A stretch of DNA of 36,738 bases, taken from the NCBI GenBank assembly GCA_016932045.1, contig JAFGDO010000005.1:1-36738 (forward strand), in the 5' to 3' direction. Of this stretch, positions 9,503-10,540 are shown piece after piece. Source of the stretch: Candidatus Dojkabacteria bacterium. GTDB lineage: Bacteria; Patescibacteriota; Dojkabacteria; JAHIVN01. The translations under genes were made by a program, and so were the position numbers. Under the pieces are notes generated by a model that was not told the DNA's origin, searched no databases, and saw nothing but the letters and a program-made list of their open reading frames with translations. Positions within the stretch are counted from its first letter, which is position 1. The number at the start of each line of letters is the position of its first letter.

Positions 9503-10348
9503 TTAATTTCTTGTCTTAAATAACTTCACTTGCTGTTTATGTTTCTTCTTATGTATTTCAAAGTAACTTTTAAATACATCCATCTTAACCTGTGTGGGAT
9601 GCGTTTCAATAAATCTGAATAACCCAAGCCACTTTATGTAATCTACTTCAGTTGGTATGTTGCTTAAGCTAAATTTCAGTTCCCTAGTCAACTTATTTAA
9701 CTGCTTATAGGTAAATATATTCTGCAATATTTTTTTTAACGATTTATTCCAACCGTTGTAGCAATATGTAATAAAATCTCTGTACAAAGCATAATTTTTC
9801 TTATCAATATCCGGAGGTGATCTCTTCTTGAATAAGACTAGGACTATATCAACCGAGGGTACCGGATAAAAGTCATTACTTTTAAATTCATAAAGAATTT
9901 TTACTAAAAAAAGAGGTGACAAAAAAAGTGAAACTTGTGAATTTTCTTGGAAACGCTTTGCAGCTTCCTCTTGCAAAAAAAGATATGCTTCTTCAGGTGA
10001 ATTCTTACTAAACAAAAGTCTTCTTATTATATCAGCAGTGAAATTGAATGGAATATTAGAAAAGCATTTATATGAAAAAAAGGGTAGGTGATAGTTAAAG
10101 AAATCTTCATTCACCAACTCTAAATTAGGAAATTTACTTAATCTTTTCCTTGCTATTTTAAATAACTGCTGATCCTTTTCTAGAGAAATTACCTTTTTCG
10201 CGACTTCACACAAACGTTCAGTTATTGTCCCTGTTCCCGTACCAATTTCAAGGATGATATCATTCTTGCCAATGTTTGCTTTCTCTACCAAAAAGCTAAT
10301 AAGCTTCTCGCTTCGAATGAAATTTTGAGAATGTTGCAGCTTCCGCAT
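9503..10348 (-). CDS. erm: Erm-type 23S rRNA adenine-N6 methyltransferase
   Basis: 281 residues. Enzymes of this family methylate A2058 of 23S rRNA and so protect ribosomes from macrolides, lincosamides and streptogramin B. Visible motifs are SQNFIRS (7-13), the SAM-binding loop LEIGTGTGT (33-41), acidic E57 after the second strand, NED (80-82), and the catalytic motif NIPF with FTADIIRRLL (98-111). The Ile of NIPF, the EEAAKRF segment and the FYPVPSVDIVLVLF segment fit Erm better than the housekeeping enzyme KsgA, whose motif is usually NLPY. The small C-terminal helical domain is present. A leader peptide and two hairpins lie upstream (10350-10501), with the second hairpin ending one base before the ATG. 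Actual drug resistance is unproven. Confidence 0.82.
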   Translation of the reverse strand: MRKLQHSQNFIRSEKLISFLVEKANIGKNDIILEIGTGTGTITERLCEVAKKVISLEKDQQLFKIARKRLSKFPNLELVNEDFFNYHLPFFSYKCFSNIPFNFTADIIRRLLFSKNSPEEAYLFLQEEAAKRFQENSQVSLFLSPLFLVKILYEFKSNDFYPVPSVDIVLVLFKKRSPPDIDKKNYALYRDFITYCYNGWNKSLKKILQNIFTYKQLNKLTRELKFSLSNIPTEVDYIKWLGLFRFIETHPTQVKMDVFKSYFEIHKKKHKQQVKLFKTRN

Positions 10349-10349
10349 G

Positions 10350-10402
10350 ATACCATTCGTAACAATTTAGATAGATGAAAAGACCATCTAAACGAATGGT
10401 AT
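10350..10402 (-). promoter_or_regulatory. Start-sequestering hairpin of the erm leader
   Basis: On the minus strand ATACCATTCGT (10402-10392) pairs perfectly with ACGAATGGTAT (10360-10350); an inner TTTAGAT/ATCTAAA pairing extends it. The hairpin ends one base before the erm ATG, so it would hide the initiation region. No T-run follows, which favours translational rather than transcriptional attenuation. Confidence 0.7.
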
Positions 10403-10450
10403 GTATGAATGCTTAAATATGAAGTGGTAGATTCTATATAGGCGCCAACT

Positions 10451-10486
10451 GTACCAAACGTCTAGAGGTTACAAGTTGTTCGGTAC
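10451..10486 (-). promoter_or_regulatory. First hairpin of the erm leader, overlapping the leader peptide
   Basis: GTACCGAAC (10486-10478) pairs with GTTTGGTAC (10459-10451), nine pairs including one G-U. The left arm is codons 6-8 of the leader peptide, so a stalled ribosome would open it. The freed right arm has TGGTA, which can pair with TACCA in the left arm of the start-sequestering hairpin. Confidence 0.6.
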
Positions 10487-10501
10487 AAAACAAATACCCA
10501 T
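10469..10501 (-). CDS. Erm leader peptide, 10 residues
   Basis: The reading frame is MGICFVPNNL followed by TAA. It begins with MGI and carries the hydrophobic run ICFV. In known Erm leader peptides a comparable run (IFVI in ErmCL, IAVV in ErmAL1) is where the macrolide-bound ribosome stalls. The distance to the erm ATG (about 120 bases) and the placement of a hairpin over codons 6-8 fit the family layout. It is shorter than the known leaders, and stalling after only about six residues would be unusually early. A TATAAT at 10540-10535 lies 33 bases upstream. The coding call rests on context rather than length. Confidence 0.55.
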   Translation of the reverse strand: MGICFVPNNL

Positions 10502-10534
10502 AGAACTTTGTGTGGTTAATGTAAATGTGAAGTA

Positions 10535-10540
10535 ATTATA
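10535..10540 (-). promoter_or_regulatory. -10 box for the erm leader transcript
   Basis: TATAAT on the minus strand, overlapping the stop codon of the upstream gene (10536-11063). The -35 side (TGGATT at 17-base spacing) is weak. It gives a leader mRNA beginning about 27 bases before the leader peptide. Confidence 0.5.

Follow-up and report, generated by a model that had tools for sequence, protein, structure and literature searches.

The minus strand of a 36,738-nucleotide stretch of a Candidatus Dojkabacteria genome, referred to here as the window, carries a gene for an Erm-type methyltransferase preceded by a short leader which, going by its anatomy, is probably a translational attenuator that makes erm inducible in a Dojkabacteria-type lineage. 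Switches of this build turn on erm genes in staphylococci upon stalling of a ribosome by the drug. The layout of drug-inducible erm genes had been recognised at this locus in a first-pass annotation, and this reading is now supported by a conserved leader open reading frame (ORF), by the hairpins 1:2 and 3:4, by an exclusive alternative helix 2:3 and by the Erm identity of the downstream gene. The TATAAT box, the leader ORF and both hairpins are all found by direct reading at the positions given in that annotation. Its description of the organism as a reduced-genome bacterium needs a small correction, since the genome, at 1.46 Mb, is not especially reduced for its group. A literature search restricted to papers outside subscription found no description of inducible erm in this group.

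Architecture of the locus

The window genome (G000) was compared with two relatives from the same family, G001 (JAHIVN010000011.1) and G002 (JAQVGX010000084.1). The features of the locus, with the evidence for each in brackets, are the following:

10535-10540, minus strand: TATAAT, predicted promoter -10 box of the leader transcript (read directly)
10469-10501, minus strand: leader ORF of 10 codons, ATG to TAA, peptide MGICFVPNNL (homologous ORFs in G001 and G002)
10478-10485, minus strand: segment 1 (UACCGAAC, codons 6-8), 5' arm of hairpin 1:2 (paired in each of the three genomes)
10452-10466, minus strand: segment 2 (UCUAGACGUUUGGUA), 3' arm of hairpin 1:2 with the conserved loop, and 5' partner of helix 2:3 (nearly invariant)
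10387-10402, minus strand: segment 3 (AUACCAUUCGUUUAGA), 5' arm of hairpin 3:4 and also 3' partner of helix 2:3 (pairing analysis)
10350-10360, minus strand: segment 4 (ACGAAUGGUAU), 3' arm of hairpin 3:4 (11 bp without a mismatch in the window)
9503-10348, minus strand: erm, 846 bp, predicted Erm-type 23S rRNA adenine-N6 methyltransferase of 281 aa (NCBIfam profile, tree and motifs)

The leader ATG lies 39 nt downstream of the start of the TATAAT box, with identical spacing in G001, and a -35/-10 consensus scan at the leader promoter did not find a full sigma-70 match. Hairpin 1:2 is formed by UACCGAAC and GUUUGGUA, with core arms at 10485-10478 and 10459-10452, while hairpin 3:4 pairs AUACCAUUCGU with ACGAAUGGUAU in a perfect helix of 11 bp (10402-10392 with 10360-10350), whose end is separated from the erm ATG at 10348 by a single-base gap.

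Identity of the methyltransferase and its rRNA target

By profile score, phylogeny and motifs, the gene at 9503-10348 is an Erm-type 23S rRNA methyltransferase, as had been proposed. Its product scores 214.1 bits with the NCBIfam model Erm23S_rRNA_broad, above the cut-off of 212, and 144.1 bits with the KsgA model, below the cut-off of 171; the Erm proteins of the two family relatives, which are about 49% identical, reach 232.8 and 224.6 bits with the Erm model. The phylogeny against Erm and KsgA comprised 56 proteins and has an arbitrary root, with the long-branched ErmF falling on the KsgA side; a branch with values of 98/89 splits 36 Erm-side rows from the KsgA rows, the former including the window protein, ErmB, ErmC, ErmT, Erm(42) and some 27 proteins from the class and phylum of the window genome. 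Although the window protein belongs to the same RrnaAD fold family as KsgA/RsmA, a KsgA misannotation is ruled out by the below-cut-off score, by its position outside the KsgA clade and by the presence of a separate KsgA on contig 20 of the same genome, whose score of 211 lies above the KsgA cut-off and which does not reach the cut-off for Erm. The SAM and catalytic motifs, checked as QNF, ExGxGxG, NIP[YF] and FxPxPxV, are intact in the window protein (SQNF, EIGTGTG, NIPF and FYPVPSV), with NIPF where ErmB and ErmC carry NIPY. With regard to the KsgA proteins of the class, these present GSLPY/F in motif IV, with Ser for the usual catalytic Asn of NLPY (rows L001, L055, L056, L058-L066, L068-L070 and L072).

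The partial 23S rRNA of the window genome (G000:C32; LSU rRNA model match of 883 bits) reads GACAAAAAGACCCC, and position 2058, the residue that the window Erm would methylate, is therefore an adenine. Positions 2057-2611 are A-U in the window genome, and the 23S rRNAs of these genomes carry an A2057-U2611 pair where E. coli has G-C (rows L076, L037 and L081-L084). The 2057-2611 pair influences macrolide binding and, to judge from G2057A mutants, A2057-U2611 may weaken the binding of 14-membered macrolides.

Conservation of the leader in relatives

Both other family genomes contain a homologous leader, which can be recognised in the alignment as an ORF of 9-12 codons with hairpins 1:2 and 3:4, so that the ORF and hairpins described for the window are conserved in its two nearest relatives. 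Hairpin 3:4 has 9-10 consecutive pairs in the relatives, compared to 11 in the window, and a single C lies between this hairpin and the erm ATG in all three genomes. The spacers between the leader arms have diverged across the three genomes while the leader stays alignable, and the loop and arms of hairpin 1 are the most conserved DNA of the leader.

The leader peptides are MGICFVPNNL in the window, MSAVLLPNNSNL in G001 and MSVVSIPNN in G002, and the only residues common to the three are Met1 and Pro7-Asn8-Asn9. The hydrophobic stretch varies in sequence (ICFV, AVLL and VVSI). The likeness of ICFV to the IFVI/IAVV stall motifs, to which the first-pass annotation had drawn attention, is accordingly weak: the stretch is not conserved, and Pro7-Asn-Asn is invariant instead. 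Erythromycin arrest contexts include X-Pro or XP(X), among other motifs (PMC6238534), and the Pro of bacterial macrolide arrest motifs usually occupies the P or the A site (PMC8121947), which makes an arrest before or at Pro7 plausible; the invariant Pro7 fits the Ery-dependent XP(X) arrest class. Constraints on the peptide and on the RNA are inseparable here because the AAC codons also belong to segment 1.

Proposed mechanism and its signal

Under the proposed mechanism, the 10 codons of the leader would be translated freely in the uninduced state and hairpins 1:2 and 3:4 would fold, the latter hiding the stretch immediately before the erm start codon and thereby keeping Erm production low. 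With a macrolide-like compound bound in its exit tunnel, the ribosome would stall near leader codons 5-7, before or at Pro7. The stalled ribosome would then sit over segment 1 and leave segment 2 free to pair with segment 3 during transcription; segment 4 and the AUG would then remain open, allowing Erm to be made and A2058 of the 23S rRNA to be methylated. In each of the three genomes, segment 1 spans nt 17-24 of the leader, and the start of helix 2:3 falls at nt 32-36. Given a ribosome footprint that extends to about +17 (PMC6238534), and assuming a ribosome stalled with its P site at codon 5 or 6, the geometry would have segment 1 covered and helix 2:3 outside the ribosome. We infer a macrolide as the inducer, together with the stalling of the ribosome and the switch in vivo.

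A stalling attenuator could also respond to a non-macrolide signal, such as another compound that acts on the tunnel or the peptidyl transferase, a toxin from a host or neighbour, or slow Pro-Asn-Asn bond formation upon EF-P limitation. The invariance of Pro7-Asn-Asn together with the lack of an IFVI/IAVV motif, the EF-P dependence of XP(X) pauses (PMC6238534) and the A2057-U2611 pair of the rRNA would agree with a signal of this kind. Nevertheless, the conservation of the Asn codons may serve the RNA, as these codons also form segment 1, and what the leader controls is an erm gene, with a product known to protect against MLS-type drugs, which leaves a non-macrolide signal unlikely.

A drug-sensing attenuator would be informative beyond this locus. 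Surveys of CPR genomes list erm-like hits by homology (3,077 hits; PMC8651080), and the counts of resistance-like genes in candidate phyla have so far relied on homology only, which cannot separate resistance from housekeeping, whereas a conserved drug-sensing switch would testify independently that the gene serves against a compound that targets the ribosome. The leader thus suggests that these uncultured bacteria meet macrolide-type compounds.

The alternative helix 2:3

It is helix 2:3 that distinguishes an attenuator from a pair of hairpins. This helix comprises 13-16 bp across a UU/UU mismatch, with 8+5 bp in the window genome and 11+5 and 9+5 bp in the relatives. The 5-bp part, UGGUA/UACCA, is the TGGTA/TACCA pairing that had been noticed in the window and is confirmed here, with an extension of 8 bp in the window and of 9 and 11 bp in the relatives; this longer part is formed by the hairpin-1 loop (CUCUAGACG) and the inner part of segment 3 (CGUUUAGA(G)). 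The energies of helix 2:3 in the three genomes are -13.4, -19.7 and -16.4 kcal/mol, and each exceeds the core of 3:4.

The pairing statistics rest on three sequences in which most pairs are invariant, strict covariation and shuffle control (a) being without power, and within these limits all of the 41 scorable cells of helix 2:3 pair, as opposed to 33-45% after sliding the partner 1-3 columns. Four pairs of this helix change on one side, and pairing is kept every time. Hairpin 1:2 is paired in 24 of 24 cells across the three genomes, and hairpins 1:2 and 3:4 together have 96.5% of their cells paired, while the slid controls give 26-45%. The sole two-sided change is one A-U to G-C pair in 3:4.

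The conserved hairpins could instead be a protein-binding site, for example one through which Erm represses its own mRNA, or a riboswitch, with the leader ORF being incidental. This reading draws on the known autogenous repression of ErmC, on the strong conservation of the loop and arms of hairpin 1, and on the Rfam search, in which no known RNA family matched the leader at gathering thresholds. Against this, the hairpin-1 loop is conserved because it is complementary to segment 3, the start, length class and frame of the ORF and the position of Pro7 are kept in all three genomes, and a metabolite switch would have no need for a segment 1 placed within codons 6-8. A binding site or riboswitch is therefore quite improbable.

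Folding predictions and chance expectation

The attenuator reading was also examined by folding. The leader fold has an energy of -47 kcal/mol, with z = -3.6 relative to shuffles. Masking leader nt 1-21 to 1-30 turns the predicted minimum-energy fold from 3:4 to 2:3 in G001, while 3:4 stays the minimum-energy fold of the masked leader in G000 and G002, where the switch would therefore be kinetic and depend on folding during transcription. Masked-leader folding does not discriminate, because 3:4 likewise persists over most mask lengths in the known ErmC/T-type leader that served as control.

The leader anatomy is more than chance. Out of 4000 dinucleotide shuffles per genome, none reached the three observed helix lengths jointly in any of the three genomes, and a scan for the same anatomy over the 319 possible start codons of ORFs of at least 80 codons in the window retained one, which is the erm start. 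A loosened version of a similar anatomy filter recovers the known ErmBL leader (8, 10 and 10 bp). An ordinary constitutive erm or housekeeping methyltransferase, with a leader due to chance or phylogenetic inertia, would be in line with the approximately 24 other genomes of the class whose Erm-clade genes lack this leader, several of them with TATAAT directly before the ATG, but is very hard to reconcile with the shuffles, the scan and a leader that is alignable despite 49% protein identity and diverged inter-arm spacers.

Initiation without a Shine-Dalgarno sequence

A Shine-Dalgarno sequence is lacking before the leader ORF and, in all three genomes, before erm. Hairpin 3:4 abuts the erm start codon and does not sequester a Shine-Dalgarno sequence in the textbook manner. 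Thus, the textbook step that frees this sequence would become the freeing of the start-codon region, and the leader is classed as a variant, though one that would work like the ermC attenuator. An SD-like motif precedes 3 of the 23 ATG-start ORFs checked within the window, and in many window ORFs the ATG follows a -10 box at a distance of 10-15 nt (e.g., those starting at 1485, 17126 and 25486). The rarity of SD motifs and the closeness of the -10 boxes suggest widespread leaderless initiation, even though the 3' end of the 16S rRNA retains the anti-SD CCTCC. The locus also offers a test case for attenuation where initiation runs without Shine-Dalgarno sequences. Segment 4 also contains an out-of-frame AUG (window 10354-10356; gaAUGgyaucAUG), which in all three genomes precedes the erm AUG by 8 nt and could act as a decoy start.

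Relation to known erm systems and distribution

The leader resembles that of ermC and ermT (ErmCL) in its short ORF, in a segment 1 located within codons, in hairpins 1:2 and 3:4 with an alternative 2:3, and in the predicted occlusion of initiation by 3:4. It differs in that neither leader nor peptide is related in sequence, in its length of 10 codons rather than 19, and in the masking of the start-codon region at a locus devoid of Shine-Dalgarno sequences. A leader ORF with competing hairpins is likewise shared with ermB, whereas ErmBL has 27 codons and another stall site, and an SD-like AGGAG precedes ermB. Erm(42) and its plasmid relatives are the closest catalogued Erm proteins by identity (34-40%) and have the same NIPF motif, but an upstream leader of the window type is absent from them. 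A plasmid homology search returned classical erm genes only, with identities of at most 40%.

A covariance model of the leader matches the three family members with E values of 4e-29 to 4e-26. Among the 86 genomes of the class, this model finds nothing credible beyond the three (next E value 0.096) and no leader in the other 83, and it has no match in the known erm loci searched. The one match among 380 genomes of the phylum, in G192, was discarded as chance, as it lies opposite a 919-codon reading frame. The 16-mer CTCTARACGTTTGGTA is present in 18 viral contigs, and none of the 18 matches the covariance model. Erm-clade methyltransferases with NIPF occur in about 27 of the 86 class genomes examined and are mostly leaderless (rows L007-L032 and L057). 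A loose-filter screen of the other Erm-clade genes of the class for a different attenuator gave nothing convincing, the nearest ATG-initiated candidate being that of G064 (L025), with helices of 8, 9 and 8 bp.

Since the leader is missing from the rest of the class, Erm-clade genomes included, and known erm loci are unmatched, it looks like a local invention within one family. It has been argued that erm leaders arose repeatedly and independently (PMC11264731), and the present leader supports this view of several origins. Going further, and with rather less than even confidence, the leader can be read as the own drug-sensing erm attenuator of a candidate-phylum lineage, which would be free of Shine-Dalgarno sequences, act by start-codon masking, represent a new leader-peptide class (Pro7-Asn-Asn), operate on A2057-U2611 ribosomes and perhaps be tuned to a compound other than clinical macrolides.

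With regard to gene neighbourhood, a MarR-type regulator and an ABC-2 transporter pair, named by eye from their translations, are found about 2 kb downstream of erm in G001 (L034:3955-6684). In the tree, Erm(42) and its plasmid relatives (L048, L049 and L050) branch beside Erm-clade proteins of the class (L027, L029, L030 and L031) with values of 91/89, a placement that is not firm and comes from a sampling of few phyla; these class proteins may point to where Erm(42) came from.
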